51,651 nt of DNA from Magnetococcales bacterium HCHbin5 (GTDB taxonomy: Bacteria > Pseudomonadota > Magnetococcia > Magnetococcales > Magnetaquicoccaceae): assembly GCA_002753505.1 (NCBI GenBank), contig PEAG01000017.1:1-51651 (forward strand). The letters run 5' to 3'. Numbering within the stretch: the stretch's first letter is position 1; the number at the start of each line of letters is the position of its first letter. This document shows, piece by piece, positions 19,682 to 46,656 of the stretch. The notes beneath the pieces were generated by a model. The model was not told the DNA's origin and did not search any database. It saw nothing but the letters and a program-made list of their open reading frames with translations. A program made the translations under genes and the position numbers.

Positions 19682-20560
19682 TCACGGTCGGAACGAGGCC
19701 GGAAAATCGATTCGGCAGCGAATGCCCGCCGGCAAAGTGTTGTCCTGGTTGGGCAGCAAAAGACGTACCCGGAAGGTGCCACTGCCGGCATCGATGACCC
19801 GATCCACCACGCTCACCTTGGCTGAACGGCTCTGCTTCAACAGGGGCAGTTGCACCTCATAGCTCTGCCCAACGCTCAGCAGGCCAAACAGACGGGCCGG
19901 CAGCACCGCTTCCACATGCAATACATCGATTTTGGCAATCCGAAACACCCGCTCCTGCTTGATCAAGTCCCCCAGGCTGTGGTAGCGGTCAACAATGACC
20001 CCCTTGACGGGACTGAGCAGGGTGCGCAACTTGAGACGCTCGTTGCGCTCCTGCCACTCCAACTCCGCCAACCGCCACTCGGTGGTAATGTTGTCCACCT
20101 CCTGGTCAGCGATCATGTTTTTTTGATGCAGCTCATTGGTGCGGGTTTTGCGCCGCTGTCCAAACTGCACCTTGGCCGCCTGCGTATCGACAGCCGCCTG
20201 TTCAACACCCGAGTTGAGACGCGCCAGAACCTGCCCGGGCGTCACCACATCGCCCCGGTCCACATTCACCTCTTCCAGGAACCCCTCGACCGGCGTCCCC
20301 AGTTGAATATCCATCGACGGTTCAACCAGGCAACTGACCTCCCGCAAGTCGGTCGTTGACGAATCGGCTGTCGTCAAGGATGGCAATGGGGTGGTTGGTG
20401 TAGCCGTCACGCTGCCCGGAAATACTCCTGGAAGCGTTGCCGTTGGCAATTCCAACCCGGATGCCGCCCATGGCCAAAACCAGAGGGAACAGCCGACCCA
20501 GATCACGACCCGCCACCGACCCATCGGCCTGCCCGCTCCGGGCTTCATCGCGTTGCTCAT
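19682..20560 (-). CDS. HlyD/RND-type periplasmic adaptor subunit
   Basis: 292 residues. A signal or anchor segment (WRVVIWVGCSLWFWPWAASG) precedes a 60-residue Thr/Pro/Ser linker, then the adaptor core: lipoyl half GTPVEGFLEEVNVDRGDVVT, a coiled hairpin (AAVDTQAAKVQFGQRRKTRT to WRLAELEWQERNERLKL), second lipoyl half RTLLSPVKGVIVDRYHSLGD, and a beta-barrel part (HVEAVLPARLFGLLSVGQSY). Such adaptors bridge an inner-membrane transporter to a TolC-like channel. The ATG at 20560 overlaps the stop of the SecA-like gene as ATGA, so translation is probably coupled; in-frame codons upstream of it lie inside that gene and are unconserved. Confidence 0.85.
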   Translation of the reverse strand: MSNAMKPGAGRPMGRWRVVIWVGCSLWFWPWAASGLELPTATLPGVFPGSVTATPTTPLPSLTTADSSTTDLREVSCLVEPSMDIQLGTPVEGFLEEVNVDRGDVVTPGQVLARLNSGVEQAAVDTQAAKVQFGQRRKTRTNELHQKNMIADQEVDNITTEWRLAELEWQERNERLKLRTLLSPVKGVIVDRYHSLGDLIKQERVFRIAKIDVLHVEAVLPARLFGLLSVGQSYEVQLPLLKQSRSAKVSVVDRVIDAGSGTFRVRLLLPNQDNTLPAGIRCRIDFPASFRP

Positions 20561-22533
20561 TCCATTTGTCCGCTGAAAGCCAAAGATTGCCGCAGCCGAA
20601 AATCCACCTCCAGCATCTGCCTGCGGGCGCGACGGTCTCTCTTCTCCGTCTTGAGTTGGGCCCGACGAAACGCGCCCAGGGCCACTGCCCGGCAATATTT
20701 ATTGTCTGGAAAATGCCTCAACAGTCCACGCAAAATATTTGCCAACTTTGGGAAATGGGCGACAGCCAACGCATCTTCCAGGGAAATCAATGCCTGCCAA
20801 CTGCCTGGGTCACCCTGGCGTGCGCAGCGTCCATAAAGCTGTCGATCCACCCGGCTGCTGTGATGGTATTCCGTCAACAAAACATGCAAGCCGCCCAATT
20901 CGGCCACCCCTTCGCCCAGTTGAATATCCGTACCCCGACCTGCCATGTTGGTGGCAATCGTAACCCGTCGCAGGCCACCGGCCTGGGCAATGATTTCTGC
21001 CTCCTGGGCATCCTGCTTGGCATTGAGTACCCGATGAGGGATATGGGCAGCGGTCAAGCGGGCACTCAGATGTTCCGACCCCAGGATGGAGTGGGTTCCC
21101 ACCAATACCGGTTGTCCGCTCTCGTAACAGACCCGAATGGCCGCCACCACCGCCTGCCAGCGTTCCTCGGCGGTGGCAAAAACGCGCTCTGGCAGGTATT
21201 TGCGTCGAGAGGGCCGATGGGGGGGGATCCGCACCACCCCCAGACCATAGACATCCCCCACCTCACCCCCCACCTCACGGCAGGTGCCGGTCATACCCGA
21301 CAGGTACACATAACGGCGGAAAAATATCTGAAAGCTGATGCGTGCCAGACTCTCCTTCTGGGGGGTGACAGGCACCTGCTCCTTGACCTCGACCAACTGT
21401 TGCAACCCCTGCTCCCAGGAGCGGTCCGGCATGATGCGGCCGGTGGTCTCATCGACAATCAACACTTTTTCGTCGCGCACGATATAGTGGACATCGCGCT
21501 GAAAGCTGTACAGGGCCACCAGGGCCTGTTGCACAGCCTCGCCGCGACGCTGCTCCCCCTGCCAGAGGCCCGGCAGATGGGCACAGGATTCACGCAAATA
21601 TTGACGCCCCTGCTCCGTCAGGGTGGGAAAACGACCTCCTGCAGTCAGGGAAAAATCGACCCCCGCTACCAACCGTTCCGCCAACGCCACCGCTTGCCGA
21701 TAATAGGCCTCGCTCTCTGCATCGGGATGGCTGGCGGAGATGACCAGAGGGGTACGCGCTTCATCGATAAAAATGCTGTCCGCCTCATCGACGATGGCAT
21801 ACTGCAAGCCGCGCAACAGGGTGGTGTGTTCCCCATGGTGCAGTCGGTCAAAGCCCATGATCATTGGTTGCATGCGGTCACCGAGTTGAATCCGGTCGCG
21901 CAGATGGTCAAATGCCAGAATTTTGCTGGTGCAATAGACCACATCCGCCTGATAAGCCTGTTTTTTCTCCTCAAACGACATCGATTCCAACACCAGACCG
22001 GTGGAGAGGCCAATGGCAGCAAACAGCGGGGCCATCTTTTCCGCATCCCGTTGAGCCAGGTATTCATTGACCGTGATGATGTGAACCGCCAAACCTGCCA
22101 AACCTGCCGTACCGGCTGCCAACGTGGCCGTCAAACTTTTCCCCTCGCCGGTATCCATCTCAGCCAGACAACCCTGCAACAGGATATAGCCACCCCGCAG
22201 TTGGGTGGGAAAATGGCGCATTCCGAGCAGTTCATCCGCCCATTGGCGAATGTGGGCAAAGGCACGACAGACCGGTTCATCCTGCAACCCCTGGCGACGC
22301 AACTGTTGCCGAATCTGATGCAAATCCTCCTGGCGGGCTGCGGGTTCCAATTGGGACAATGCCACCCCCATTTGTTCCACCTGCTCCACCCAGCGATCCA
22401 GTTTCCCCGAGCGGATCCGCCAGCGGGCCACCCACAGTCGGCGCAGTCGCTCCACCAACCGTTCCAGCCAAATCTGGGCCCGCCAGTCCGCCCGCTGGGG
22501 GTAAGGTGCGCTGTTGATCCGCAGGGCAAACAT
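20557..22533 (-). CDS. SecA paralogue (accessory preprotein-translocase ATPase-like)
   Basis: 658 residues, much shorter than housekeeping SecA (about 900). All ATPase motifs are present: Walker A EMDTGEGKSLT (about 125-135, Ser for the usual Thr), VNEYLAQRDAE, Walker B VDEADSIFIDEARTPLVIS (from 248), MTGT (414-417), VLNAKQDAQEAEIIAQAGG, NMAGRGTDI (529-537) and GRCARQGDPG (568-577; the usual form is GRSGRQGDPG). The preprotein-crosslinking region between the nucleotide domains is kept, but the helical scaffold/wing part and the C-terminal zinc finger/SecB-binding tail are largely missing; the end is only basic residues (KTEKRDRRARR). It starts four bases after the M50-HlyD stop. Its placement among adaptors points to a dedicated export motor; that is inference. 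Confidence 0.88.
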   Translation of the reverse strand: MFALRINSAPYPQRADWRAQIWLERLVERLRRLWVARWRIRSGKLDRWVEQVEQMGVALSQLEPAARQEDLHQIRQQLRRQGLQDEPVCRAFAHIRQWADELLGMRHFPTQLRGGYILLQGCLAEMDTGEGKSLTATLAAGTAGLAGLAVHIITVNEYLAQRDAEKMAPLFAAIGLSTGLVLESMSFEEKKQAYQADVVYCTSKILAFDHLRDRIQLGDRMQPMIMGFDRLHHGEHTTLLRGLQYAIVDEADSIFIDEARTPLVISASHPDAESEAYYRQAVALAERLVAGVDFSLTAGGRFPTLTEQGRQYLRESCAHLPGLWQGEQRRGEAVQQALVALYSFQRDVHYIVRDEKVLIVDETTGRIMPDRSWEQGLQQLVEVKEQVPVTPQKESLARISFQIFFRRYVYLSGMTGTCREVGGEVGDVYGLGVVRIPPHRPSRRKYLPERVFATAEERWQAVVAAIRVCYESGQPVLVGTHSILGSEHLSARLTAAHIPHRVLNAKQDAQEAEIIAQAGGLRRVTIATNMAGRGTDIQLGEGVAELGGLHVLLTEYHHSSRVDRQLYGRCARQGDPGSWQALISLEDALAVAHFPKLANILRGLLRHFPDNKYCRAVALGAFRRAQLKTEKRDRRARRQMLEVDFRLRQSLAFSGQME

Positions 22534-22537
22534 GTTA

Positions 22538-24694
22538 CTAGAGCGCGAAACGTTTCAGAAACAGTTGGCGCAGTAACCGATACCACTGCATAGCCAACGG
22601 TTCATCGTCATGAACAAAACGGACAAAAACACGATTTCCCAATGCGATAGGAGTTGTCCCGCCGATAAATTCGATCTCAAAATGAAACAGGGAGAGCATG
22701 GCCTTGGACTCCTGTTCAGAACGGGCCGTTGGATCGAGACCAATCTGACCACCACCGTGCAACGATAGCGTCAGACTGGGCAACTCAGTGGTAGCGGCCG
22801 GCACCTCGCGGGCAATCCGGGCAAACAGCAGCTCATTGACCCGGTCCACCGAACGCAACTCCACCCGTTGGGTGCGATGGCGCACCATATCCACCTCGCT
22901 CTGCGGCACGACGGCCAGCAAGGTATAGCGGGCCGGATCCAGCACATAGGCCAGCAGATCACCGCGTTCAAGATAACGACCGCTGAAATTGTCACTGGCG
23001 GGTAGCACAAATTGACCGGCATGGGAGGCGATCATGGTCATCTCGGCGCGCCGTTTGGCCACATCCTCCAGCCGCTGCCGTGCAAAGGTGAGTTCACTCT
23101 GGGCTATCTGTCGTGCCACCCGATCCATGCTGTCCGCCAACACCAGGCGGGCTTCAAACTCCTCCACGCTGGCCTGCAAATAACGGTATTGGGTCTCGGT
23201 CTGGAGATCCTCGCAGCGCAGCAGGGGTGTTCCGGGCTGCACCCACGCCCCCACCGGGGCCAGCACCGCCTGGGCAAAGCAGGAGGCCGGCGCGCGGATA
23301 CGCGACTGCTCCGGCATCCAGATGACCCCTTCCACGTTGGTCCAGGCCGGGAAAGGCAGCAGCAGAATGGTTGCAACCAAGCCGGATAGCAGACTGCCGC
23401 TCACCAGTACGGCACGTCGCCGCTGCCCTTCCAGCAAGGGATTGGCCGCCAGGTAGCTCCCCATCCGAAACAGCGGCAGCAACAGCATGGCGTAAGAGGC
23501 CCACAGGGCCAACACAACGCCAACAAAAAAAAAGTGTTCCGCCACCGTCAACAGGATGGCGACCGCCACCAGCATACGGTTGACAAACGAGGCCAATGCG
23601 TAGAGCAACAACCATTGGCTTTCGTGACGGGTCATGTGGGGTTTGGTCAGCCCCTTTCGCACCCCAAACAGGTGATAATTGATGAGATAATTGGCATATT
23701 GATTGGCCTTTTGTCCCAGGTTGGGCATTTCCAACCAGTCGGCCAGCACATAATAGCCATCAAAACGGAGCAGCGGATTAATATTGAAAAGGACGGTGGT
23801 GACACCCGCCAGGATGACCACATGGTACAACAGTGCCTTGAGCGGGCCGGGTGAGGCCCAGCTCCACAACCAGATGGCCAGTGCGGCCAGGAACAGCTCT
23901 GCCATCATGCCAGCCAGCCCCACCAACATCCGCTGTCGGCTCTCGCTCAGCGCATTGGCCTGGCTGGCATCCACATAGGGAATCGGCGCGAAAACCAGCA
24001 ACATCACCCCCATCTCATGGCACTGGCCGCCATAGGCCTTGATGGCCAATGCGTGTCCGAGTTCATGCACCCCCTTGACCACCGGAAAAACCAGCCCCAG
24101 GGAGAGCATATTTTCGGGGGTAAAGACATGCGAGATAATATCTTTGGTCAATTCATCCCAGTGCATGGCTCCCAGCACCATACCGCTCCCCACCACCAGC
24201 AGCCAGAGCAACATCAGCCAGCCGTGCATAAAGCCGGGGAACAGACGGATCAACACATTCAACAACCGTTCCGGATCGAACAGGGGAATCTTCAGCGATA
24301 GCGGATTGGCCAAATATTGGCGCAGCTTGAGTTTTTGTATGCGACCTTGCCGCTGATGCAGCTCCTCCAGATCCGGTTTTTTGTCGGTCAGCAGCAGGCC
24401 GGCCTGGTAGAGTTGGGTCAACAGTTGCAGCAGCTCATCCTGGGTGGGAACCTCATCGTGCAAGGTCTGGCTGGCCAATCGCCAGATCTCTTCCATGGTG
24501 CGATGGCCATCCATCAAGGTGATGATCCAGTAGGCGGTGGCATTCAGGCGCAAAAAGCGACCGCTGGCCAGATCCTGCGCCACATACCACCGCTCTTTGC
24601 GATAGATGTGGCGGAAAATGCGCGCCTGGCTGCGCAAGCGGGGACGCAGGCTGGCGACGCGATACCAGGAAGAGGAGAAGAGGGCCGAACTCAT
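22538..24694 (-). CDS. PqqD-like / M50 site-2 protease / HlyD-like fusion protein
   Basis: About 718 residues. First, a PqqD-like winged-helix segment (about 30-105: YVAQDLASGRFLRLNATAYW, then LMDGHRTMEEIWRLA), a fold that binds peptide leaders. Next, a polytopic membrane part with the zinc protease motif HELGHAL (about 210-216) and the distal NINPLLRFDGYYVLADW (about 304-320), the S2P NPxxxxDG motif; both are intact. Finally a HlyD-like half from about 460 (IRAPASCFAQAVLAPVGAWV, coiled hairpin, ASHAGQFVLPASDNFSGRYL). Related fusions accompany peptide or protein exporters. I use the ATG at 24694; a TTG at 24712 would overlap the previous gene. The stop precedes the SecA-like start by four bases. 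Confidence 0.87.
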   Translation of the reverse strand: MSSALFSSSWYRVASLRPRLRSQARIFRHIYRKERWYVAQDLASGRFLRLNATAYWIITLMDGHRTMEEIWRLASQTLHDEVPTQDELLQLLTQLYQAGLLLTDKKPDLEELHQRQGRIQKLKLRQYLANPLSLKIPLFDPERLLNVLIRLFPGFMHGWLMLLWLLVVGSGMVLGAMHWDELTKDIISHVFTPENMLSLGLVFPVVKGVHELGHALAIKAYGGQCHEMGVMLLVFAPIPYVDASQANALSESRQRMLVGLAGMMAELFLAALAIWLWSWASPGPLKALLYHVVILAGVTTVLFNINPLLRFDGYYVLADWLEMPNLGQKANQYANYLINYHLFGVRKGLTKPHMTRHESQWLLLYALASFVNRMLVAVAILLTVAEHFFFVGVVLALWASYAMLLLPLFRMGSYLAANPLLEGQRRRAVLVSGSLLSGLVATILLLPFPAWTNVEGVIWMPEQSRIRAPASCFAQAVLAPVGAWVQPGTPLLRCEDLQTETQYRYLQASVEEFEARLVLADSMDRVARQIAQSELTFARQRLEDVAKRRAEMTMIASHAGQFVLPASDNFSGRYLERGDLLAYVLDPARYTLLAVVPQSEVDMVRHRTQRVELRSVDRVNELLFARIAREVPAATTELPSLTLSLHGGGQIGLDPTARSEQESKAMLSLFHFEIEFIGGTTPIALGNRVFVRFVHDDEPLAMQWYRLLRQLFLKRFAL

Positions 24695-24701: not shown

Positions 24702-26531
24702 CTATATCCCAAACCGTTGCCAAAGTTGCAGTCGCAACCAATCGGTCAACCGATGGGTCCAGATCCAGATCAGACGGCGTTCACCAATCAAAACCTTGGC
24801 CACACCATCCATCCCCGGTCGCAGCCGTTCATCGCTGTTTTGCAGCAGGGCTTCGGCCCGAAAAACGGTCTGTCCTTCACTGACGCTGGCAACCGGTGTG
24901 ACCAGCGAGAGGGTAAACGGAAAGATGACACCCGGTATGGCGGTTACCACCAGACCGCCTGTCTGACCCGACTCTACGCTGGCGATATCCGATTCGGCAA
25001 TCTCCAGCACGACGCGATAAGAGTCCAGTGGAGCGATTTCAAACAGGGTCTGCCCTTTCTTGACCGCTCCGCCAAGGTGTTGGGACAGATCCCCGCTGGT
25101 AACAACACCGTCAAAAGGGGCGACCACCGATGCCCGTTGAATCATGGTTTCCAGCAAAGCGCGTTGCGCTTCCGCCTGTCGGATCTGGGCACCGATAATC
25201 TGTATCTGTGCCAGATCGTGTTTGGCCTCCGCTTCGTGGGCCTGCTGTTGATATTGCCGTTGCTGGCTGCTCCAGCGGGCAGCCTCCAGCCGCATGTCAC
25301 GATCATCCAGGGTCGCCATCGCTTCCCCAGCCCGCACCAGATGACCGGCCCGCACCTGTGCCGTCGCTATAAAACCATCGTACGGTGCAACAATCAGCCG
25401 ACGGATCCCCCCTTCCAGGGCTGCATGGGCCGTAACGTTATGCTCGCCGTGCGCCTGGTAGAAAAAAATGCTGGCCGACAGAGCCGTCAGCACGAAAAGT
25501 TTATAGCCCGCATGACGGGGGCCAAGCAGGCGGTGGAGTTGGTCGCGCAGTGCTTTCCGCAGCCGTTTGTACCAGGGCAACTGTTGGGCCCGTTTATCCA
25601 GCAGCACCCGCCCCAGAATGGGCGGAATCCCCTCTGCCATCTGCCGGGTGGTCGGGTCCAACTCCGCATCCAGCCATTCAAAAAGAAAAACCCCGTAAGC
25701 CTCTTCCGAGATAAAAAACGGGGTAGCCATGACGGCCCGATTGCCAAATTGCCGTGCCAGCAACATCAACTCACGGGTTGGACGCGGTGGGGATCCCTCG
25801 TCCACGGTGGCCGCTTCCCCTTCGACATAGGTCAGGGCACACCCCTGGTCGGCCGCCTCATTCATGGCGGCCTCCAGCCGATGGGTCAAATCAACCTGCT
25901 GCACCACTTCGGCCGCATGGGAAAGGGCGATCAGTCGGACCCGGTTCCGCCCACCCAGCCCCAGGGCGGCCCGGTCACACCCCAGGCGGGTGGCACTCTC
26001 CGTCACCGCCGTCTGGCAGGCGGCTTCAAATTTTTCTACCGCCAGCACGCTCAGCAGCAGATTGAGAAAGACCAGCAGCCGCTCCGGCAACGGTTGATCG
26101 GCCGGTTCGGTCGTATGCAGCAGACGATCATAGATCCAGCCGACCCCCCACATGACCCAGTTGCGGGCATGAAAGGGGACGTTGGGGGCCAAAAACTGGA
26201 TTCCGATCACCCCATGGATATCCTGGTCCCGCAACAACGGCACCACCAGGATGCTGCCCTGGCGGTCCGCACGATTGACGGGCAGACGCAGTTCCATGGC
26301 CTGTTCGCACGCCACGGCAAGCTCCGGGCTGCAGGTCGACCGACTCCCCGGCCAGAGGGCAACGGGCCGGAACGGCCCCACGTTGGCCGGTCCCATCACC
26401 ACCACGGCTTCCTGCACTTCGCCGACCCGCTCCCCCATCAACGCCAGCCAAGCGGTGATAAAGCTTCTGGAATCGGTCTCCTGTTGTAAAACCTGCCAAT
26501 GATCGACTGCGGAATAGGTAAGCTGACTCAT
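24702..26531 (-). CDS. Dual-GAF sensor fused to HlyD-type adaptor
   Basis: 609 residues. Residues 1-150 and about 180-335 are two GAF-like domains (for example SILVVPLLRDQDIHGVIGIQ and FEAACQTAVTESATRLGCDR, AVMATPFFISEEAYGVFLFE). A single membrane segment follows near 365-385 (LFVLTALSASIFFYQAH), then a HlyD adaptor with lipoyl halves APYDGFIATAQVRAGHLVRA and ASVVAPFDGVVTSGD around a Gln/Ala-rich coiled hairpin, and a barrel domain (YRVVLEIAESDIASVESG). So the GAF part should be cytoplasmic and the adaptor periplasmic. The stop TAG lies seven bases before the M50-HlyD ATG. There is no good ribosome binding site before the start, but a strong hairpin is (26544-26578). The ligand of the GAF domains is not evident. 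Confidence 0.86.
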   Translation of the reverse strand: MSQLTYSAVDHWQVLQQETDSRSFITAWLALMGERVGEVQEAVVVMGPANVGPFRPVALWPGSRSTCSPELAVACEQAMELRLPVNRADRQGSILVVPLLRDQDIHGVIGIQFLAPNVPFHARNWVMWGVGWIYDRLLHTTEPADQPLPERLLVFLNLLLSVLAVEKFEAACQTAVTESATRLGCDRAALGLGGRNRVRLIALSHAAEVVQQVDLTHRLEAAMNEAADQGCALTYVEGEAATVDEGSPPRPTRELMLLARQFGNRAVMATPFFISEEAYGVFLFEWLDAELDPTTRQMAEGIPPILGRVLLDKRAQQLPWYKRLRKALRDQLHRLLGPRHAGYKLFVLTALSASIFFYQAHGEHNVTAHAALEGGIRRLIVAPYDGFIATAQVRAGHLVRAGEAMATLDDRDMRLEAARWSSQQRQYQQQAHEAEAKHDLAQIQIIGAQIRQAEAQRALLETMIQRASVVAPFDGVVTSGDLSQHLGGAVKKGQTLFEIAPLDSYRVVLEIAESDIASVESGQTGGLVVTAIPGVIFPFTLSLVTPVASVSEGQTVFRAEALLQNSDERLRPGMDGVAKVLIGERRLIWIWTHRLTDWLRLQLWQRFGI

Positions 26532-26588: not shown

Positions 26589-26891
26589 TTAGGTTTTCAA
26601 TGGACCGAAGCGGTCCTCGTATTGGCGCAAGGCCATATCCAGCATCATGTGCAGTCGTTTGGCCGCGTAGGGGTTCAGGACCACCCGATTGCTCAAACTG
26701 ACTTTGACCTCTTTTTGCCCCACCTGCCACGCCTGATTGGACCCAAACAGGATCATGACCTCCTCTCGAGTACCCAACACGTTGCAGACATTGGCAAATG
26801 ATGTTTGCATGTTGCTGTCATCCCACACGATGGTTGGCTCTCCATCCGCTGGATTGCGCTGCGTCACCACCGGTTCATTCTCTTTTATCAT
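26589..26891 (-). CDS. DUF3467 family protein
   Basis: 100 residues, matching the usual length of DUF3467 proteins. Family features are SFANVCNVLGTREEVMILFG near residue 30 (the YaN/E-F strand pair) and the C-terminal VSLSNRVVLNPYAAKRLHMM leading to ALRQYEDRFGPL (the R-V/I-x-L/M-S-P-x-x-A-K-x-L ... YE-x-x-F-G consensus). The family has no established biochemical function. No signal peptide or membrane segment. The start is supported by GGAG eight bases upstream. The small cytoplasmic product sits between the giant protein and its presumed machinery, so a chaperone or assembly role for the giant is possible but purely inferred. Confidence 0.82.
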   Translation of the reverse strand: MIKENEPVVTQRNPADGEPTIVWDDSNMQTSFANVCNVLGTREEVMILFGSNQAWQVGQKEVKVSLSNRVVLNPYAAKRLHMMLDMALRQYEDRFGPLKT

Positions 26892-26939: not shown

Positions 26940-26967
26940 GACGGTCCCCAGACCCCTGCACTTGTTC
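26940..26967 (-). repeat. 3'-end palindromic repeat element, copy 3 (half)
   Basis: Read on the minus strand it starts within the stop codon of the giant gene: ACAAGTGCAGGGGTCTGGGG then ACCGTC, then diverges. Only the 5' core is kept; the second arm of the palindrome found in copies 1 and 2 is absent. Confidence 0.65.
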
Positions 26968-29900
26968 AAGATCCCCAGTCAAACAGGGGACGGTTGCGAC
27001 GGTTGCTGTCGCCTGTTTTATTCTGCTGCTGCCATTGAATTCGACCGGCGGCAGCGGCCATCATGGCACCAGCGGTTTCAAACAATCCTGGCATATCGGC
27101 GGCTGCACCCTGATTCGGTGCCTCACCCTCACCACCATCCTGGGCAGGCGGTGTCGCATTGCCACCCTCCGGGCTGGCAGCCCCACCCTCCGGCCCGGCG
27201 GCGGCTCCCGCCTCACCCGCATTTTGCGCCGGTGCGGCTCCCGCTCCACCCGGAGCTGCTGCCCCACCGGTATCAACCCCGCCGGCATTGGCAGGAGCCG
27301 CACCCGGGCCGACTGCCGCAGGCTGATTCTGATTGCCCAAAGCCCCCCCGACATTGTCCGACGCAGGAGCAGCATTCTGCCCCTGCCCGGTCGCAGCCGG
27401 CGGGTTGGCTCCCGTGGTCGGCGCGCTGCTCTGGCCAGCATCAACGGGTGCAGTTTGGGTCTGGCCGAGCGGGGTGGACAGACTGTTTGCCACACCCCGG
27501 TTGTCATTGACAGCGGATGGCGACAATTGCGGGCCACCCAAGGGGATGATCGAGCCCGTGGCCGCCGGGTTGCTGGTAGCCCCGGAACCCATCAGGCCAC
27601 TGTCACCAACCGTCATGTTGGTGCTCACCGCACCCGGCCCGCTGCCTCCCAGACCACTCATGGGGGTAATGGTTCCCCCGACTCCACCCGTTGCCGGGAC
27701 ATTGGAACTGCCCAGAAGTTGCGCAAAAGAGCCGTTGGTGGTCGACGCAGCGGAGCTGCCATTATTGGGTACGCCACCACCGGCCGCCCCGGCAGCTCCC
27801 CCGCTACTCGACTGGCTGGTGGTTGCATTACCGGCGGGAGTGTTGCCCTGTCCACTGCCTGAACCCGTCGCAGTGGTTGTTGTATTGGCGGTGTTGCTCA
27901 CTGCCGCCGCCACCACGGCATCCACAACGGTTGTCCCGGTCGTGACAGCCGCGCTGGTTGTACCACTGCTGCTCGTCGTCGAAGCGGTCCCTGTCGCAGC
28001 CTCGGTTGCTGTCGTCCCGGTCGTGGTCGTTGTTGTTGTTCCCGTGCTGCTGGTCACCGAGCTGACGCCATTGCCAGTCACCGAAAGGGTCAGGGTCACG
28101 TCGGTACCATCCGCTGCGTGAACCAACAATTTGTCGGTGACCGCATCCTGGCTGCCCATGGCCTTGACCGCGTCATTGTTGGCCAGGGTATAACTCCAGG
28201 CACCCGCCGCCGTCAGGGTCAACGTTCCATACTGACTGCTTACACTGCCGGCTTGAAAGCTACTCTCCCCACTGTCCACATCCACAATGGTGAGCTGCCC
28301 ACTGGCGGTTGGGCTGGTATCCTTGTGGACCGCACCCGTCGAGACCCCGCTCACAACCGGCAGATCGTTGCTGCCCTGCACGGTAACCACCAGCCTGGTT
28401 GTTTGACCGTCCGCAACCGCGACGGTAAACGCATCACTCACCGTCTGACCAGCCCCCAGTTTTTGTACCGCCTCACTGCTGTTGGACAGGGTATAGCTCC
28501 AAAGCCCGCTGGTAGCCAAGGCCAACTGGCCATACGTCCCGGCCTGAGTCGCCGACTGGAAGGTCACCGCTCCGCCGCCCGCATCGGTGGCCACCACCTG
28601 ACCGCTATACTGGGTTGTGCCGTCTTCTGTGACCGTGCCCTGGCTGCTGCCGCTGATCACCACCGGATCGTCTGTGCCCTGAACCGTGATCGAAACCGTC
28701 GAACGGCTGCCATCCGTCGTCTGAACGACAAAGAGATCGGTCTTGCTGTCGCTGGAGTTTAACAGCTGGACAGTCGCCGAACTGTTGTCCAACTGGTAGC
28801 TCCAGGAGCCGTCATCGCCCATGGTCAAAGAGCCATAACCGCCAGCACTGGTACCGGTGACAAAGGTTGCCAGTCCGCCATCCAGCGCGGGATAGGTCAA
28901 CCGGCCGCTGGCACTCAAGGTGGTATCCTCCTTGGCCGTGCCAACACCTGCCAACACCAGCGGAATTTCACTTGTTCCCGAACCGCCCGCTCCGCCCGCT
29001 CCCGCAGGCTGTTTGACCCGGACAAAATCGGTAACCCCCATCTCCTCATATTCACCCAGGGCAACAACGCTGACAATCCGGGACGCGACGGTAATGGTAC
29101 CGCTGCCAGGCAATATTTCATCGCTGCCCGCATGGCCGCCACTCTTGAGGTCAACCCCCGGTCCCCCCAACACCAGGGTGGTACCAAAGGCCGACAGCAT
29201 AAAGGTATCGATGGCGGCCAGATCGTCCACCGTGCCGACATCGGTCGACTGCACCCGACTGGCCACCCCATTGGTAAAATTGATCTGACCATTGTCGCCA
29301 ACCGCAATGCGGTTGCCGGTATCCGCCGTGTTAAAGGTCAGGCTGTCCTTGCCGAGTCCGCCGATCAGATAGCTTTCACCGCCACCCACCACCAGCACGT
29401 CAGTGCCGCCCGCGGTTTCTGCGGTGGAAAAGAGCTGGCCCAGCTTGCCGGTTACAGCCGTTTCAAACACAATCGAACCGGCGTCACCAAAAACAAGATT
29501 GCGATCCCCTTCCACCGTCAGCGTGGTGATACGGTCGGCACCGGCACCACCAAAAACCAGCTTGTCACCGGAACCGGTACGAATGGTATCCGCACCACCC
29601 GTGCGCGGCTGTACCACATCGGCAAACAGATGCTGATAGGTACCGGCACCATCTTTGGCCCGGCGATAATCCAGATTATCGCCGGAAATAATGTCCTGAC
29701 TGCGGGTGGCCCCAATCACGTTGATGCTGTCGTCCGCCATTCCCCCCGCCACCACGTTAAAGTCGGTCAACGGGTTGCCGGTCGGCGCATCCCCGGACAT
29801 GATGAGCGTGATCGTATCCGCACCACCGGTCGACACGTCCGCATCCAGGGTGCTGAAGTTGGTCAAACGCCCCTCATTGTCAAAAAACAGGGAGGCATTA

Positions 29901-32900
29901 TCCCCGGCGACACTGCGCTCGTTGATATTGGTCGCGGCACCATGCACTGAAAGTACCGTAATGGTGTCCGCACCGTAACCGCCGATCACCACCTTGTGGC
30001 CATCGCTGGTCGCCCCACCCGTACCAAGGGAGATGGTGTCATTGCCGCCCACCGCCAGACCAAGGCTGGAGGCTGTTTTCAAAACCCCACTGCCACCGAC
30101 ATCAAACACCAGCGTGGCAGAGTCACCCGTCACCGTTCCCACCCCGCTACCGGCCGTGATCACATCACCACCCATACCACCCACAATGACATGATTGCCG
30201 GAGACCGTCTGCAGCAGATCGCCGCCACCCTGATCAGGCAGCAGACTGCTCAAGGTGAGCAGACGGCCGGCAGTCGTCCGCCGCAGGTCAACGTTGTCAC
30301 CCACCAGTGTAGCGGTGGCCGTCACGCCACTGATGATGAGCGTATCGGTGGACATGCCACCGACCAGCAAGGTTTCGCCCATGTTGCCGGTGATGCTGCC
30401 CGTGGGACCAATGTTGATGCTGTCGGAACCGCCGGTGGAGGCATTCTGGTCTGTTGTGGTCAGATTGGTCAATGCAGCCCGACCGGCACTGTCCACCCCA
30501 AACAACAGGGTGGCATTGTCCCCCACCCCCATCCGCCGGGCGGTACGGGTAGAGTTGACCGCCAACTTGTCCCCCGCAAACCCGCCGATAAAAGTGACCT
30601 CCCCGTCGCCGATGGTGACGGTATCGCCACCACCAAAGCCCAGGGCCAGACTCTCTATCTTTTCCACCAGACCGGAACCGGCCACCGAAAAGTTGAGCTG
30701 ACCGGAATCTCCCAACACGGTCGAACTGTCCGAATCGTTCAGGGTGTTCAGGAGAACGGTATCGCCGCCAAAACCACCCACCACAATTTTTTTGCCCTTG
30801 CCGGAGAGAATGGTATCCCCATCCCCCTGTTCGGGAACCAGACTGGTCAGCAGCAGGTGTTCATAGTTGAGGGAGTGGCGTTTATACTCGGCATTGTCGC
30901 CAAAAATGACATCCTCGCTGGTGGTGTCGGTGCGCACCAGCACCTTGTCCGCCGCCATGCCGCCGATCACCACCTGATAGCCCAGGTTGCCGGTAAAATC
31001 ACGGGCTCCCAGGGTGATGGTATCCGCGCCACCGGTTGCCGCAATGGCATCGGTGGAGGTGATCGTGGTCAAACTGCCCTTGGCATCGAAAACAACCCGG
31101 ACATTGTCACCGGATACGTAACGCCCCGAGTGACCTTTCCGGTAAATATCGATGACCTGCTTCGCCTGCTGATAAACATCCAACACCTCTTGGGCAATCC
31201 CGGTTGTGCTGATCAACTGCCGATGGATGTCGATGATCTGCTGCGCCACCGTGGTCACATTGGCCAGACTGCGGGCAGAGGCAATCGATTTTGCCAACCG
31301 GTACAGATCTCTGACCTGTGGATCAATACCTGCCTCAGCGGGCAGATCAATGGCGTCAGCCGCCGAGGCATCGATGCCGGTCACATCCCGGACCCCGACC
31401 GCATTCGGCACACCAGCCCCAGCCAGGAAACCACCAAAAACAGTCACCGTATCCGCACCATAGCCGCCGATCACCACCTTGTATCCTTCCCGCAAGGTGA
31501 TGGTATCGTCCCCGCCGATAACGGTATCGATACTCTCCATCTGCCGAATGATGCCATTTTTGGCGTCGGTATCAAAATTCAACACACCATTGTCGCCGAT
31601 CACCATATGGTCGCCGTCAACGGCCGAAATGACATCGGTTCCAAAGCCGCCGATGATCACCTTGCCACCGCTGCCGGTGATGATGGTATCGTTACCGCCC
31701 TTGTCGGTCACGGTCGAGACAATCTGCAACATGCGGTTGCGATACAGGGAGCTGGCCGTCGCGCTGGTCCGATGGATCGCGCCATTGTCACCGATCAGTA
31801 CATCTTCACTGGAGGTGGTCAGTTTATCATCGCTGGAGATGGTATCGAACACCTTCAGCAGATCATTTCCCATCCCACCCGCCACCAGATTTTCACCCAG
31901 AATCGCCTTACTCTGATCGACGCCGATGATGATGGTGTCATTATCACCCGTAGTGGCTACGGTGTCGGTTGTCACCAGGTCGGTCAAACCTCCGGTGGTA
32001 TCATAGGTCATCTGGACATTGTCGCCACTGATATGGCGTTTGGAAAGACTGGTCGTCTCAATGGTGATGACGTCCCGCCCGAAACCGCCCACAATCACCT
32101 TGTCGCCGTTGGCGGTTCGGACCGTATCGTTGCCCCCCAGGTTTAACAGGGTGGAGTGGACATCCCGCAGCGCGTAGGCGGTGGCCAGCGTCCCCGCGTT
32201 GCGGTGAATCTCGCCGTTGTCGGCCAGAATGGTGTCAAAACTGGTAGTCACCCCCAAAACCTGAATGGTATCCCCGCCCATGCCGCCGCTGATCAGGTTT
32301 TCGCCCAGATTGGCACTGCTGCCTGCCTGGCCAATGGTGATCAGATCCACATCCCCCGCCCCCGAATCGGTCGAGGCGGTATCGGTCGTCACCAGATCGG
32401 TGAGCCCGCCGGCGGTGTCATAGGTCAGGGTGACATTGTCGCCGCTGATGTGGCGTTTGGATTGGCTGCTGGTATCAACGGTGATGCTGTCCTGCCCCTC
32501 GCCGCCCACAATCACCTTGTCGCCGTTGGCGGTTCGGATCGTATCATTGCCCCCCAGGGTCAACAGGGTGGAGTGGACATCCCGCAGCGCGTAGGCGGTG
32601 GCCACCGCCCCCGCATTGCGGTGAATCTCGCCGTTGTCGGCCAGAATGGTATCAAAACTGGTGGTCGCCCCCAAAACCTGGATGGTATCCCCCCCCATGC
32701 CACCGCTGATCAGGTTTACGCCCAGATTATCGCTGCTGGTTGTCAGACCAATGGTGATCAGATCCGCATCCCCCGCCCCCGAATCGGTCAAGGCGGTATC
32801 GGTCGTTACCAGATCGGTGAGCCCGCCGGTGGTATCATAGGTCAGGGTGACATTGTCGCCACTGATATACCGCTTGGATTGGCTGGTGGTGTTGACGGTG

Positions 32901-35900
32901 ATGCTGTCCTGCCCCTCGCCGCCCACAATCACCTTGTCGCCGTTGGCAGTATGGATAACATCAGCACCCCCCACATCCAACTCGCTGCTACTCACCTGCT
33001 TGAGCAGATTGAAGTCGGTCGACGCCACCGAGTCCCAACGGCTGATCTCCCCGTTGTCCCCCAGAATCACATCGGTACTGTTGGCCGCCCCCGAGGTGAT
33101 GACACCGGTGGTCGCATCCTGACTGGCGGAGACCAGCACGGTGTCCGATCCCACCCCGGCGATGATATAGTTGCTGCCCAGATAACGCGCCACCAGATCG
33201 TTCTGGTTGCCGACAACAATCCTGTCGTTGCCGCCATCACTTCCCAACAGATCCAGGCTTTTGAACGAGATGGCACCACCGTTGACATCGGTATCGATGC
33301 GACCATGGTCCCCGGCGATAAAACGGCTGTTGCCTCCCGTGGAGCTGGCAGCGTTAAAATAGATGGTGTCATTGCCGGAACCGCCAAAGACAATCCCGGA
33401 GCCGCTGCTGAGATTGACCACATCATCGTTCCCCAGTCCACCCGTCTCTGACACCGGGGCCAGGATATAATCCAGCAGATGGCTGCGCCCGGCCGTGGTC
33501 TTGAAGGTGAGTTTGGTCTGGCCCGCCACCGTCGCCTCTTCGGTACGAAATTGAACGGTGCCGTTATCGGCCAGGATAATATTGTTGCTGGTGGCCAGGT
33601 CAGCCCCGGTGATGGTGTCCCTGCCACTGCCCGCCAACACCAGGTTGCTGCCACTGCCCAGGTAGATGGTATCCCCCCCTCCTCCCCGGCTGCCAAAGGT
33701 AGTCGCCGACAGTGCGGTGCGATAGTTGAAATCAACCTCCACCTTGCCCAGATCGGCCATGATGGTGTCGTTGCCCTCCCCGGAGCCGCCGACGTTGATC
33801 AGGTCCCCGCCCAGGGCACCAAAAATCATGTCGTTGCCGCTTCCCCCCTTGAGCGTCTGCTTGCCGGCAACCGACAGGCTGATATTTTCCAGGGTTTGCC
33901 CTTTCCAGATCCAGTTCCGGCTGGCGGCCCCGAACTCAGCCGCCCCTGCAGCCTGCAGGGTCAGATAGTCGGTGACGTTTTGCAGACCACTGGCAGGACG
34001 GGTCTGGCCACTCAGCAAATTTTTGTAGGTGACAAAGGTATCCGCCACCAACAGGTCGTGCGCCGCCTTACCCTCGATAAAATCGGTACCGTTGTTGCCG
34101 ACAATCATGTTGTTGCGACCATCACCCGACAACCGATCCCCTGCCGATCCCCCAAACACATTGTGAAACCCCCGCACGGTAATACTGGTTGCCCCCGCCG
34201 TGCCGAAGGCACTGGCCGCCTCCAGATCAACCCTGACCGCAGAGGTGTACTCGGAAAAATCGATGGTATTGCGCGCATTGGCCGCCTCGTTGCCGGAGGC
34301 GTCATGCCAGGCACCGTTGGCGGTATCCCCGGCCATGGAACCGGTCAAAGAGGCACCATCGCGGATTCGGAATACATCACTGCCCTGACCACCGACAACA
34401 TTTTCAAAGCCGATAAATTTGAAACCACGCCCTGCATTATCCCCCGCTGCCACCATATCCTGGTGGGTTGTGGCATCAAAAGCGGTCTGGGTCATCCCGC
34501 TGGCCGCCCCCTTGACCCAACCGGCATCGGTCGCGGTAACGGTGATCAGCAAATTGGCCGCATCGCCGGAAAAGTCGATCCAGTCACTGCCACTCCCCCC
34601 CTTGACGACATCGATGGTGGTGGTACCGTCCCAGGTGGCCTGGTTGTTGGCACGGGTGGCATTGTAGTAGGCGTCATCAACGTTGATGGCTGCCGTTTGG
34701 GCTGAAAAATCGAGTTCGTTATCGCCGATGATGTCCTCAATGGTCGCCGTACCCCACTCGCCCAGGAAACGATAGCGATCGCTCCCCGTCCCCCCCTGCA
34801 TCAATGTCGTACCACCCCGGGCCAGCAGCAGGTCATTGCCACCACCACCGATCAGGGTGGCATTCCCGGAATCGGAACCGATCAGAATATCGTCTGCCGA
34901 ACCCCCTTTGAGAATATCCGTACCACCGCCTGCAATGAACAACACCGGCAGATCCAGTGCCGACGCATCCAGTGTGTCATCTCCCGCACCGGTATAGGCC
35001 TTGACCCGGGTCACACCGACAAAGGTTTTGGTGTAGGTTTGACCATTCGGCAACAGGGCCTCAATATTGACGGTGCCATTGCTGCCGGTCAGGGTGTAGG
35101 ATTCGTTGCCATCATCAATGCTGCGGCGCAGACGGTCACCGGCATCCTTGTCCACCGAGCTGTTGCCATCAATACTGCCGATGGTCGAACCGGTGTGCAG
35201 GGTCAGCACCGAGCCGTCCATGGAGGCCAACACCGGCTTCTTGGCGGCCGGGTCATGTTCCCACTCAAACAGGGTGACATCCATGAATGTCCACTCATAG
35301 ACCCGGACCCATTCGACCAACAGGTTCAGATCCACATAGGCGGAAATATAGGCCGAGCCCCGCAGGTGCATCTCCACCACATCGAGGGGATCTTCCGAGA
35401 CAGCCGCAATCAACTCCGAGGCGCGATATTTGTTATCCTTGTCCTCGTCATAGATGTCCAGGGTACCCTCCAGCTTGATCCCCCCCTCGACGCCACCCCG
35501 GACAATGACGGCATTGAGTTCCGCAAAGGCGAACAATTTGGCGGTGAGTGTCACCTCCGGCTTGTCCACGCCGTTGACAATGTTGTCGCCGATATAAAAA
35601 CCGTCCAGCATGTCTATGAGATTGTGGCTGTCAAAAAACTTGCTGATCCCGTAGGTGTCATACCCAAAATTAAACATCATATTGACATCAATGTTGCCAC
35701 CGATGCCGACATACAGGGGCGGGTAGACCGGGAAAGAGACCCGGAAACCGACCCCCAGACGCAGGGCCCCAGGCGTATAGGTAACCAGATCAGCCGGCTC
35801 CCCGGTCAACAGGGCAATCACCGACCCGATCGGATCCTCCAGGATGGGAAAGGCCAAGGCACTGCCCGGCTTGTTCAAACGGTTCTGGAAATCGGTAAAG

Positions 35901-38900
35901 GCCTGCTGCGGCGAAACCGTCTGCTGTCCGGGCATGTCAATGTCCGGCAGGTCAATGTTGATATCCGGCAGTGAAGGCAGGGCAGGCAGGCCAAAACCGA
36001 AGCTGAAATCAATGTCGGGCAACAGGTCGAGCAGGCTGATACTGGGCAGCCAGACATCCGGCATGTCGACGGTGATGGTGCGACCGGGATCCACCAAAGC
36101 CGCCAGCAGGCCGGCATCGGAAATAATGCTGGACCACCCCAGGTTGGTCGATTGGGTCTGTTTCCAGATAAACTCCTTGCCCAGGCCGATCCAGTGTACG
36201 GTTGGCCATTTGACCTGGATTTGCGGCAAAAATGGCGCGATGCTGCCAAGATTTACGTTAAATGATGCCCCCGTCAGGTCGATGGTCTTGATGGTGGCCG
36301 GGTCCACAAACGAGGACAGGGCCGCCGGCCAATCCACCGTGCACGTCTCCCCCGCCGCCCACTCCCACGTTCGGGTTCCCACCTGCCAGGTCATCTTGGG
36401 CATCAGGATCTGCAACACCGGCAACACCTGGGTATTGATGTCAAAGCCGGTAGGCAACTCCACTGTCACATCAAAGTGGGGCACAAAACCACCGGTCAGA
36501 ATGTCGGACAACCGCAAATCCTGCCATCCCGCCTTGATATTGAGCCGGAAGGTACCCGTCAAACCATCGATGGTAAAGTCCACCGGCGTCACATCGATGT
36601 AGGGAGCCGGAACCTTGACATCGGCACTCAAGGCAAAATCAAACCCCAGGTCCGGCATGTCCCCCTTGAAAATGGTCAGCAGGGTCGTATCCTGCTGCCA
36701 ACCAACCCCCATGTTGAGGCTGAATTCCAACCCATCCTGGTTGACCGCAATATTTGCCAACTCTTCGTAGGGCAGATCGACCGGTACGTCCAGGTTTGAC
36801 AGGCCGGGAATCTCCGGCAATGCCGACAGATTGAGCTTGCGATCCTTGGTGCCGCTGACGACAAAAGCCTGGGTCACCGGGATCAACATGCCGGCGGTAT
36901 TGGTGGGCAGGTTATCGATCACATCCAACAGGTTGACCATGGCAACGATAAAGTCAATCTGGGAGATGCCACCAAACATGGCCGACATGTCAGAGGCCAG
37001 ATCCACCACCGAATAGTCACGCCCCATGATGTCGGAGAGGCCCGGTATCGGAGTCGTCAAGGCATCGATCACCGGCATGATGGGATCCGTGACATCCTGA
37101 ATCAGGCTGACGATGGGGTTCAAAAAGTTGGTGAAAAAGGTGCCCGCATCCAGGTAGATGTCGGTCATCCAGATGTTCGGGGCACCGGCATGGAACAGAG
37201 TGTCGTAACCGGTGGAGAAAAACTGTTCAATTTTCTGCACATATTGGTTTTTATTGCTCTCCTGCCAGGTCATATGGAAGTCGCCCATGATCTTTGGCAG
37301 GTACCCCTCACCCCCCAGGGAGATCCCCAACTCCATATGCAGGTTGACCTGGGCCTTGGCGTCCCACTCCACCGCCACCAGATCGGACAATTTGGCGGTG
37401 CGCAGGTCGTTGAAGGTCAACCGGCCGTTGGTCAGGCCCGACAGGGCCGAAATGCCAAACAACCCCTTGTCCTTGAGATCCACCGCCAGATTGAGTTGCA
37501 AACGGGTACGCGAACCATCTGCCCCCGAATCCCCGTCGAACAGAGTGGTTGTGCGGCCATAGTTGGCCGACTGCGCCCCCACCAACCGCCCCATCGAATC
37601 GGAGCCGCTGCCCCAAATTCCGGTATCGTTATCCCGGATCCAGCCGTCCCAGTTGTCGGTCAGGGTGCCATTGAGTACAAAAAGCTGGGCATTCAACTCC
37701 GTCGGCTGGCCACTGGCCCCAGGGGCCAGATAGACATTGATCTGGGCCTGAATCTCCTTGACGGCCGGGGTAAAGGTCGGCTTGCCCACCAGCCACAGGT
37801 TGTCGATATGGACATCGTGATGGTTGCTGACCACGCCGGTGGCAATACCTGGCTGGTTCGGGTCGTAACTGGTGATCTCCCCAAGACCGGCGGTGGCTGG
37901 CATATTGGTCACCAGATAAAAACCATCCTTGATGTCAATCCCGAATCCCAAATAGAGATCCCAATCCAACTCCAGCGCAATGCCGCCATCCAACTCCAGA
38001 CTGAGGGGCAGGCCCGGCACGCCAATGTCAAAGCTCAAGTCCAACTGGGGGGTGTAGGTTTGGCCCAGGTGCATGCGAAACTGGATGGCGGTACTTTGCG
38101 CCAGGGCAACCTGGGTGCCCACCTTGATCGCCTCCTCCTTCACTGCCGCTTTCAGCTCGGCCAGACTGGCGGTGACCACCACAGCATTGGGATCGGTCAA
38201 CCGTGCCTGCTGCGTTGCCAGCAGATCGGATTTGAGGGCCAGGGCCGAAGGGGTGAAGGTGGTCATGACATCCGTCAACACCGCTGCCGTCACCCCGGCC
38301 CCGAACACATCCCGCAGCAGGCTCTGGTAGTTGTAGCCGTCCGCCACCTTGTTGGCGATAAAGGTGACAATGTTTTGCAACGAATCAAAAAAGCTTTTAT
38401 CCTGGCCGGTACTCTGCACCACGCTCATCAGGGAGCTGGCCGTCTCGGCCATGCTGTCGATGGAACCGGCAATGTCGTCCAGAATGTGCCGCAGGCTCGA
38501 ATCAATGATCACATCGCCCGCATCGCCGATATAACAGGGGGTGCCATCATCATGGAGGATCGGATCACCATGACTGTCCAGGTTGGGCAGATTTTGTCCA
38601 GCCGTGACCCAGGCGGTGCGCTGACCAGGCAAAACCGCTGGAATCATGGAAGGTTGCGTAATACCTAAATAGTCCGCCAGAGCCGGATCGATCCGTGGGG
38701 CCCCGACGCCGGCGATATATTCCACCACAATATCGTCGGGGGTGACCAGATTGTCCCCGTTGTAGTCCTGGAGAAAATTAAGAAACGGGTTGGAGCTGAT
38801 CTCGGTGGCTTGAATGATAAAATCATGGTTGGTGTCGGTGGTCAGCATGTCGAAGAGAAACATGCGCAAGGCGTTGTCCAGACCGCCATAGATATCCACC

Positions 38901-41900
38901 GACGCCGTCAGGGCATCGCTCAGGGCCTTGACCACGTTGATGCGCAGATCGGCGACAAACTGGGTCGCCTCCCGCAGTTGATCGCCAATGATCGGCAGCG
39001 AAAGCACATCGCTGAAGGCATCCAACCCTTTCTGAATGGTGCCCAGCACCTTGTCTACCGTATTGACCACGATGGTGGGGTCGCGCAACAAAAACATCAG
39101 CGGCCCATTGACCGGCTTGTCGGGATCGCACTGAGCCCCCAGAGCGTGTTCCAGTACCACGGTCAGCTCCAACTGCCAGAACTCCAGATCCGGAATGATC
39201 AGGCTGATGTCAAAACCGGCACTGGACGGGTTGGCCTGCGGGGTTGCGCTGAACAGAACGGTGGCATCCAGGGTCTGCGTGGAGGGGGTGGTTGAGGCAC
39301 CCTGGCCCGCCGTGGAGGCGTAGAACGGGTCAAGGGTTACCGCATCCAGGGCCGCCTCGTTGTCATCGTCCACCGGGGCCCCTTCCGGAGTGGTCGCTGC
39401 AATACCGTTGCCGGTACTCGGACGCTCCGGCAGGGCAGCCTGTCGCACCTGGCTGGAGAGAATGAGGGCGGAATCGGTGGCCTCTGCAGTATCCTGCAGG
39501 GTATAGCCGCTCTTGCCCCCCATTTTGGCAAAAGTTTCACCCAGATGGAGAAAATGCAGCTCCATTTTCCCCAATGGCAGCGGATTGATAAACCCGTCAA
39601 TCTGCTCCATGGCCAGTTGGCCCAACTCATCGGAGACGCTCAACACCAAGGGAAATACCACCGACGAAGAGCCGTCAAAGATCACCTCAAAGTTTGACTT
39701 TTTCAACGCAGTGGCATCCGTCGCCGACAAACTGCCGTAGGCACCCAGATAGAGCCGGCCATCGTTGGCTCCGTCGGCCGCATCGGAATGGAGCATGACA
39801 CCGCTGCCGGTCAGGGTGAGATCAGCCGTGCCGTTGCTGACGCCAAGGCTGTAAATACCCTGGTTGGACTGGAAGGTGATCCCGGCCGCCGTGGCCGAGA
39901 AGGTATCCAAGCGGGCAAAGGTTCCCTGATCGCCAGCAAGACCGGCCGCCCCTCCCGCCACATGGTCGTACAGGAACAGCTTGCCCTGGTTGCTGCCGCT
40001 GCTCAGGTCGATACCCAAAGCCAAGTTGAAGGTCATATCGGCATAGAACTGGCATTTGGCGGTACCCTCGGTGTCCTTCACCTCCCGCAGCGAGCCGATC
40101 AACCCCATCAGTTCGTCCCGATCGGCAGCGGAAAGCAGCCCCAGCAAGGCCGAATCGTTGAAGATCAGATCGACCGGGAGAGCTTGGTTCAGCACCACCC
40201 GGTAGGGAATGACAATGCGCAACGCCTCCTGGCCGACGGTGTTGTCGTTTTCCAGGCTGATGGCACTCGCATCAATGCCAAAGGCGGTCGCCAGGATACC
40301 CTGCAGCTCCAGCAATCCTACCCCCTGCTGGCCCGTCAGTTGGGCGGTGATCTGTTTAAACCGGCTGGTAAAGTCAAACAGGCTGGAAACACTGCTGCCC
40401 AGCATGGGCAACGCCCGGCCCAACTCCCCGAAAGAACCCAATGCGCCCAGGTCACCCAACACCCCCGTCAACTGACTCAAATCGGCCTTCAGCGATGACC
40501 AGGTAACCCCCTTGAAGGGGGTCAGGGTTCCCAAACCGTTGGAGGGCACCACCGTGACGGTCGTCATGGCATCCGTTCCCTTCAGCATGGCAACCGTATT
40601 GCTGACATCGATGGTGATTTCGGTCGTGGGAACCAGACCGGTCGCACTGATGCCGGTGGGAGTGACAACATTGATGCCGGAGAGTTTCAGGGTGGCTTTC
40701 GGTGTCGAGCCCGCCGTGCCCGCCTGGTCGAGAAAGAGCGGATCGGTCACATAATCCCCCTCCATGAGGCGACCCTTGACGGCAAGAAACTTGAGTACAA
40801 TCTCCTTGGCCGTGACCACCCCGGCCTTGAGGGTCAAGGTGGAGCCGCTCAGGCCAACCAGATCGGTGCTGGCTATCAGGGCGTCCAGATTGGCCTTGAC
40901 CGCATCGTCGGTGGTGTTGCTTTTGGCGGAACTCAAGGCCATCTTGATCGATTCAGCCACGTCCGTCACCAGTTCGGCCAACGACTGGTTGGTGCTGGTG
41001 CGACTGGTGCGCACCACCACATCCACCGGTTGCGCCAAACCACCGACCGCCACCGCCAACCGCAAATCGGTCAGCAGCACCCCGGTGGCAGCGTCATAGA
41101 TCTGGGTCGGGTTGGCGTCCAGGGTCAGGGTTGTGGTCGGCGCGGTGAAGGTGAGCACATTCTTGGGGACAGCAACCGTGCCAATGTTGCTGAGACTGAC
41201 AAAGGTATGGCTGGCATAGGGATCGCTGCCCAACTTGGCCACCAGCGCGGCATGGATGGCATCGTCCACATTGGCCGCCAGTTCAGTAACAGAGCTGTTG
41301 TTGAGGGTCGCCGAGCGCAAAACAGTCACGTCGAGATGGATGCTGCCCACCGTGACCAACAGCCCAACATCCCGCAACAATTGGCCATTGCTCAGGTAGG
41401 GAACCGATGTTGCAGAAACGGTGTTACTGGTCTGTAACGCTCCGCCCAATCCCAGCAGAGACTCCTGAGAAGAGACCGAATCAAACAGGGCGTTGAGACT
41501 GATCCGATCCCCGGCCACACCCGCCAGCCCATTGCGCAACTCCAACTGCATGCTGCCCTGCAGATCGGTCCACAACCGGTCGGCGGTCAGATTCAGCATG
41601 CCAAGGGTCGCCTGGGCCGGGCTTGCCAGGGTTCCAGGGGTTGCCCCGCTCTGGCCATGGATCACGGCACTGTAGCTGCCGCCAATCACCGCGTCCTGCA
41701 GGAAAACGTAGGCCCCGGAGGTATTGGCATGCTGTCCCGGGGTGAAGCCCAGCTCTGTCATGGCCGGGTCAACGCCGTCGATCTGGATCTGCAACGAGGC
41801 CAGGCCGGCACTCAAGGTGACAATCTCTATCTGTTTGTTGCGCAGTATCGCCTTTACAACCTCCCCCAGGTTGGCAAACCCCATGCCGCCGCTTCCCAGG

Positions 41901-46624: not shown

Positions 46625-46656
46625 GACCTTCACCCTTGGGTTGAAGCAAAATCCCT

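Follow-up and report, generated by a model that had tools for sequence, protein, structure and literature searches.

A PqqD–site-2 protease–HlyD fusion protein that probably reads, and may cut, the N-terminal tag of a giant protein during export

Giant proteins that carry the LEPR-XLL tag occur in many bacteria and range from about 2,000 to more than 10,000 residues, and in the literature we searched we found no description of their export route or of what the tag means. The locus discussed here raises the question of whether a single membrane protein encoded beside such a giant reads its tag, and perhaps removes it. The window, by which we mean the full stretch of 51,651 nucleotides, contains at 22538-24694 on the minus strand an intact open reading frame with its ATG at 24694. 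From the N- to the C-terminus its product joins a PqqD/RRE-like domain, a site-2 protease (S2P) core and a HlyD/MacA-like adaptor, and we will refer to it as the fusion. We believe that the fusion probably reads, and may cut, the giant's N-terminal tag during export. Its parts are as follows.

22538..24694, minus strand: the PqqD/RRE–site-2 protease–HlyD-like adaptor fusion, 718 aa, from profiles and predicted structure
24392..24583, minus strand: PqqD/RRE-like domain, residues 38-101, from PF05402 and a match to TfuB1; cytosolic by the positive-inside rule
23360..24274, minus strand: seven-helix S2P membrane core, residues 141-445, from the structural model and topology prediction
24053..24067, minus strand: HELGH zinc-binding and catalytic motif, residues 210-214; HExxH in 41/41 and 81/81 homologues
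23756..23779, minus strand: NPLLRFDG, residues 306-313, with the third zinc ligand Asp312; Asp in 41/41 and 81/81 homologues
22598..23356, minus strand: HlyD/MacA-like membrane-fusion domain, residues 447-699, with a helical hairpin at 497-550; periplasmic by topology prediction

The initial annotation had proposed that a PqqD-like domain, a site-2 protease with intact HELGH and NPxxxxDG motifs and a HlyD-like adaptor share one polypeptide, and profiles, structural model and alignments all bear this out. Two Pfam families match above their cut-offs, PF05402 (PqqD) at residues 38-101 with 32.2 bits (cut-off 23.4) and HlyD_3 (PF13437) with 25.5 bits (cut-off 22.2). Peptidase_M50 (PF02163) reaches 23.0 bits and falls short of its cut-off of 27.2, so the protease is S2P-like by its fold and motifs and lies outside the Pfam M50 threshold. 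The NCBIfam model for an RRE-type intramembrane protease, NF041824, covers residues 18-407, which is nearly the whole of the model, with 164.8 bits against a cut-off of 300, and all 30 of the aligned relatives match it as well. The YydH/LiaK model NF058609 matches the protease part only (165-328).

An AlphaFold2 model built from a 30-sequence alignment has a mean pLDDT of 83.9 and a pTM of 0.58. In it, residues 24-97 form a PqqD-type domain, 154 to 445 contain seven membrane helices and 447-699 make up the adaptor, and a beta hairpin at 228-241 takes the position of the re-entrant hairpin of S2Ps. When the full model is used to search for similar structures the adaptor matches dominate, and the rows for the protease and the RRE rank lower. 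By alignment with VIA-align, the PqqD part resembles the leader-binding domain of TfuB1 in its leader-peptide-bound form (Z 9.9, rmsd 2.8, 84 residues aligned), the protease part resembles an RseP orthologue (Z 10.4, rmsd 3.0, 130 aligned) and E. coli RseP itself (Z 9.9, rmsd 3.9, 161 residues), and the adaptor part resembles MacA (Z 14.8, rmsd 3.8, 219 aligned). As modelled, then, the PqqD-like domain is a winged-helix leader-binding (RRE) fold, and the TfuB1 match agrees with the earlier suggestion that it is of the type that holds leader peptides.

The orientation of the fusion can be predicted from its charges. Lysine and arginine counts in 81 homologues obey the positive-inside rule if the PqqD part faces the cytosol and the adaptor lies in the periplasm. 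In this predicted orientation HELGH and Asp312 lie close to where helices 2 and 4 reach the cytosol. Only one loop predicted to be inside is poorly charged, and it corresponds to the hairpin that is drawn into the membrane in S2Ps (for RseP see PMC4597795).

Relatives of the fusion are found in 88 of 299 genomes of the phylum, and at least 587 stretches in public genomes encode them. The best 80 of these at least 587 were retained, and they come from Alpha-, Beta-, Gamma- and Deltaproteobacteria, Omnitrophota, Nitrospirota and Rokubacteria. Since full-length homologues with the identical three-domain layout are widespread among proteobacteria and also occur in a small number of other phyla, the pattern is not due to chance. 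His210, Glu211 and His214 are invariant in both sets of homologues that we aligned, of 41 and 81 sequences. So is Asp312, which was partly preselected in the set of 81 because those sequences were retrieved with a pattern that includes the NPxxxxDG motif. The initial annotation had named frequent loss of the HExxH residues as an observation that would speak against its reading; we looked for loss of the catalytic motifs among the 41 and the 81 homologues and found none. Plasmid-borne relatives carry names such as 'PqqD family protein', 'site-2 protease family protein' and 'HlyD family efflux transporter periplasmic adaptor subunit', and public annotation gives them domain names only. A 2023 review on bacterial S2Ps mentions neither PqqD nor HlyD, and in the open-access literature, which leaves most subscription journals outside its scope, we found no study of the fusion and no link between the tag and a protease.

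The genes around the fusion point to export. A run on the minus strand encodes the giant, a DUF3467 protein, a GAF-HlyD protein, the fusion, a SecA-like ATPase, an HlyD protein, a ShlB protein and a TPS-domain protein, in that order. The features outside the giant are listed here, with the counts of related loci referring to the best 80 of the at least 587 stretches.

46747..50004, minus strand: TolC-family outer-membrane channel with an N-terminal AMIN domain, 1085 aa; candidate exit channel
26589..26891, minus strand: small conserved DUF3467 protein, 100 aa; 26/80 related loci
24702..26531, minus strand: GAF-domain plus HlyD-family adaptor, 609 aa; 77/80 related loci
20557..22533, minus strand: truncated SecA-like ATPase, 658 aa; 76/80 related loci
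19682..20560, minus strand: HlyD-family periplasmic adaptor, 292 aa; 63/80 related loci
17530-19629, minus strand: ShlB-type two-partner secretion transporter with POTRA domains
10633-17412, minus strand: TPS-domain protein, 2259 aa

Four of these genes (GAF-HlyD, fusion, SecA-like and HlyD) form a cassette in which neighbours are separated or overlap by a few bases, in the style of a translationally coupled operon; the ATG of the fusion lies 7 bases past the GAF-HlyD stop and its end lies 4 bases ahead of the SecA-like start. The cassette usually adjoins a gene for a giant protein. Of the remaining genes, the DUF3467 gene between the giant and GAF-HlyD is conserved in many relatives, and the TolC-family gene lies upstream of the giant, with the AMIN domain of its product inside a long N-terminal extension. 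The two-partner secretion pair (10633-19629, minus strand) comes immediately after the cassette and has been retained in several close relatives (L058, L059 and L061-L064). In L060 and L062 GAF-HlyD is absent upstream and an unmatched open reading frame of about 1250 aa occupies its position. No RNA families or tRNAs were found in the window.

The SecA-like neighbour shares with SecA and SecA2 the SecA motor, including its ATPase motifs, and the preprotein cross-linking domain. Unlike them it stops early: its alignment to solved SecA ends near residue 600-610, from which we take the helical wing, the two-helix finger and the C-tail to be missing, going by the general domain limits of SecA, and this holds in nearly all relatives. 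The region in question holds the parts thought to push the polypeptide through SecYEG. The relatives share one endpoint, nearly all of them 14 residues after window residue 645, and they retain the Walker and related motifs. A shortened SecA derivative of about 658 aa with the same end thus recurs in dozens of phylogenetically wide relatives.

The presumed substrate is encoded just beyond the DUF3467 gene.

26966..46633, minus strand: giant protein with bacterial cadherin-like repeats, 6555 aa; presumed substrate
46448..46483, minus strand: LEPR-XLL tag IEPLEQRLLLSG, at about residues 51-62 of the giant; NF012209 over cut-off
45782..46261, minus strand: DUF4347 domain within the giant, modelled as a caspase-like fold, His and Cys invariant; possible protease for self-processing

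Giants adjacent to the cassette bear the pattern ExLE[PEDQ]RxLLS[AG] near the N-terminus, which is the NCBIfam family NF012209 (LEPR-XLL), and the tag of the window giant matches it with 28.1 and 25.1 bits (cut-off 17). Examples are IEPLEQRLLLSG in the window giant, AETLEPRFLLSG, VEKLEDRILLSA and FEAIEPRILLSA, all within the first 120 residues or so. Among 106 large open reading frames the pattern is confined to the first 200 residues, in 30 of them, with zero occurrences further in; many of the frames that lack it are antisense or truncated. An NCBIfam scan of six giant N-termini gave LEPR-8K as the sole match and did not find any daptide precursor family. Membership of the window tag in Planc_extracel (PF07595) was rejected, its 18.1 bits being under the cut-off of 25.5; this planctomycete extracellular motif may be the same sort of signal. 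It is important to realize that the tag is no classical S2P substrate, since it is not a transmembrane helix.

What ties the tag to the fusion is that the two occur together. Among the phylum's 299 genomes 38 have the tag; 37 of the 38 also carry a homologue of the fusion, and the tag occurs in one of the 211 homologue-free genomes (Fisher p about 1e-21, uncorrected for kinship). At the model threshold it is absent from 51 of the 88 homologue-positive genomes, and at least 7 of 17 loci inspected in homologue-positive genomes below that threshold have a divergent tag. Of the 49 searchable genomes in the named set, 43 have the tag and 6 gave no match to it, and none of 14 control genomes has it. 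Nearly half of the tagged open reading frames (23/50, a count limited by draft contigs) finish within 10 kb of a fusion homologue. Of 14 Omnitrophota genomes one has both the fusion and the tag, with one tagged open reading frame directly after the protease gene, and one has a weak tag only. The link to the LEPR-xLL segment that the initial annotation drew is thus favoured by co-occurrence and gene neighbourhood. Its idea that one protein does everything is probably too simple, because genes for a truncated SecA-like ATPase, for two further HlyD adaptors and for a TolC-like protein lie nearby.

A second clade of three-domain fusions allows the partners of the tag to be separated. Its members have no SecA neighbour and adjoin giants with LEPRxxFDGA tags (LEPRMMFDGA, LEPRFMFDGA, LEARMMFDGA and similar), which are often missed at the LEPR-8K threshold. 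The window genome itself has three more PqqD–S2P–HlyD paralogues without SecA (L055, L056 and L057, on contigs C61, C144 and C131), and the one on C144 adjoins a giant with LEPRILFDGA. In a tree of 32 fusion proteins with known tags the SecA and SecA-free clades fall cleanly apart with support of 100, and all ten tags of the SecA-free clade carry Asp at the position of the Ser in the other clade, with the exception of L070 and L071. L036 and L107, where no SecA was detected, sit in the first clade and keep the Ser tag. The tag therefore follows the fusion and not the SecA-like ATPase, and its constant partner is the fusion protein family. When tag subtype and cassette type were compared by independent pairs, 2-3 pairs were informative and the test had no power; the subtype changes 2-3 times on the tree, which is consistent with co-inheritance and is no proof of co-evolution.

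The closest characterised family is MpaP/NF041824 of the daptides, in which an RRE also lies N-terminal to an S2P, and daptides and giants are both substrate families with an E-x-[LM]-E tag. Daptide precursors share ELExMEAP and are cut just C-terminal to the conserved proline; MpaP, an RRE–S2P fusion, is credited with removal of the leader, and changes at Leu -7 or Met -4 abolished modification, by way of the RRE of MpaB (PMC10036551). Compared by eye, the short motifs IIEPLEQR of the window giant and ELDPMEAP of MpaA1 share [hydrophobic]-[acid]-Pro-[Met/Leu]-Glu, and IEPLEQR lines up with LDPMEAP. By analogy this likeness is a strong hint that the tag would be the ligand of the RRE and would be cut at its end. 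There are differences as well: our fusion has a C-terminal periplasmic adaptor, its partner is a protein of several thousand residues where that of MpaP is a short peptide, and its 165 bits lie below the NF041824 equivalog cut-off of 300. We noticed no short precursor peptides or tailoring enzymes among the neighbours examined, in a survey of short open reading frames that was unsystematic. YydH/LiaK (NF058609) and TmcP (DUF3267) are likewise S2P-type proteases tied to leader removal from ribosomal peptides, which for the bacteriocin leader cut by TmcP was established with an active-site mutation (PMC13252029), but they act on small peptides and have no adaptor. The M50 proteases RseP, SpoIVFB and mjS2P share with the fusion HExxH, NPxxxxDG, the core fold and a hairpin near the active site; unlike it they are without PqqD or HlyD, and their best-known substrates are membrane-anchored regulators.

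We believe, with a probability of roughly 0.55, that the fusion both reads the tag and cleaves the leader. The domain make-up, the catalytic residues, the topology prediction, the cassette and the association of the tag with the family are the observed basis, and from them we infer the binding of the tag, its cleavage and the site of cleavage, the export route and the role of the SecA-like ATPase. The fusion would belong to an export apparatus that serves giant surface proteins specifically, and would be the part of it that reads the leader at the inner membrane. The giant would be synthesised with the N-terminal tag ExLExRxLLS[AG], which the cytosolic PqqD/RRE-like domain would bind and present to the S2P active site near the cytosolic face of the membrane, and the zinc protease would cut at the tag or just after it. 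In the periplasm the fused HlyD-like domain would dock to a TolC channel and to the further HlyD proteins. Energy might come from the truncated SecA-like ATPase, which might alternatively keep the chain of the giant unfolded. A wider version of this scheme is possible and we put it forward tentatively: the cassette with a TolC-type channel would be an ABC-independent secretion system whose adaptor-built intramembrane leader peptidase reads the ExLExR tag, with a SecA-free LEPRxxFDGA branch and an RRE–S2P module shared with RiPP maturation.

A second candidate protease beside the fusion is the caspase-like domain within the giant itself, which follows the tag at a distance of about 60 residues. 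DUF4347 occurs in the window giant and 17 others, its His (in SHG) and Cys (in YGC or YAC) are invariant in all 18, and its model (pLDDT 84.6) resembles Tce1 (Z 14.0), a CHAT protease (Z 11.0) and caspases. It is a probable clan CD protease domain within giant exoproteins, and it may process the window giant itself and share the work there. It is conceivable that the fusion only binds the tag and gates export while DUF4347 does the cutting, the S2P site being left to clear leftover peptides, stuck substrate or the like, and the position of the domain close behind the tag, its invariant residues and its Tce1- and CHAT-like fold argue for this. However, several tagged giants (L045, L047, L051, L070, L071, L074 and others) have no DUF4347 match and keep both tag and S2P, so the domain is not the general cutter of the tag and we regard this division of labour as unlikely. 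Nothing need be cut at all if the fusion is a structural platform that recognises the tag through its RRE and brings in the SecA-like ATPase and the adaptors, the giant keeping its N-terminus. That the protein includes an adaptor and that its gene is tightly linked to the SecA-like and two HlyD genes does suggest assembly of a complex, but HExxH and Asp312 stay unchanged in every one of the very divergent sequences, which would be hard to account for if the protein catalysed nothing, and this makes an uncut giant rather improbable to us.

Two more conventional explanations take the giant out of the hands of the fusion. The locus does resemble type I secretion (HlyB–HlyD–TolC, including the exporters of giant adhesins) in its HlyD-type adaptor, TolC-type channel and giant repetitive cargo, and the giant could leave through an ordinary ABC exporter encoded elsewhere, with the fusion contributing an adaptor and nothing more. 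RTX and serralysin domains are described at the C-terminus of a LEPR-XLL giant from a Vibrio (PMC10868602), which we count in favour of such a route along with the HlyD-like domain and the TolC-like gene. Yet within the loci themselves the ABC ATPase signature is absent from 138 of 141 and present in 3; in place of an ABC transporter there is a SecA-like ATPase and an adaptor covalently joined to a protease, and the signal in the giant is N-terminal where that of type I secretion is C-terminal. We find this route very improbable. S2Ps are best known for regulated proteolysis (PMC10202637) and a GAF domain is encoded next door, so one could also picture the protease cutting a signalling protein, the GAF protein sensing and the giant being incidental. 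But an adaptor is part of the very protein that carries the GAF domain, and the genes that constantly accompany the fusion encode adaptors, SecA-like proteins and giants; we give a signalling role hardly any weight.

If the wider version of the scheme is true, with its RRE–S2P module shared with RiPP maturation, these giants would be handled like enormous precursor peptides. The finding names a concrete putative reader and a candidate cutter of the LEPR-XLL tag and links them to the biology of RiPP leaders. It also brings out a conserved derivative of SecA without the parts thought to drive polypeptide through SecYEG.
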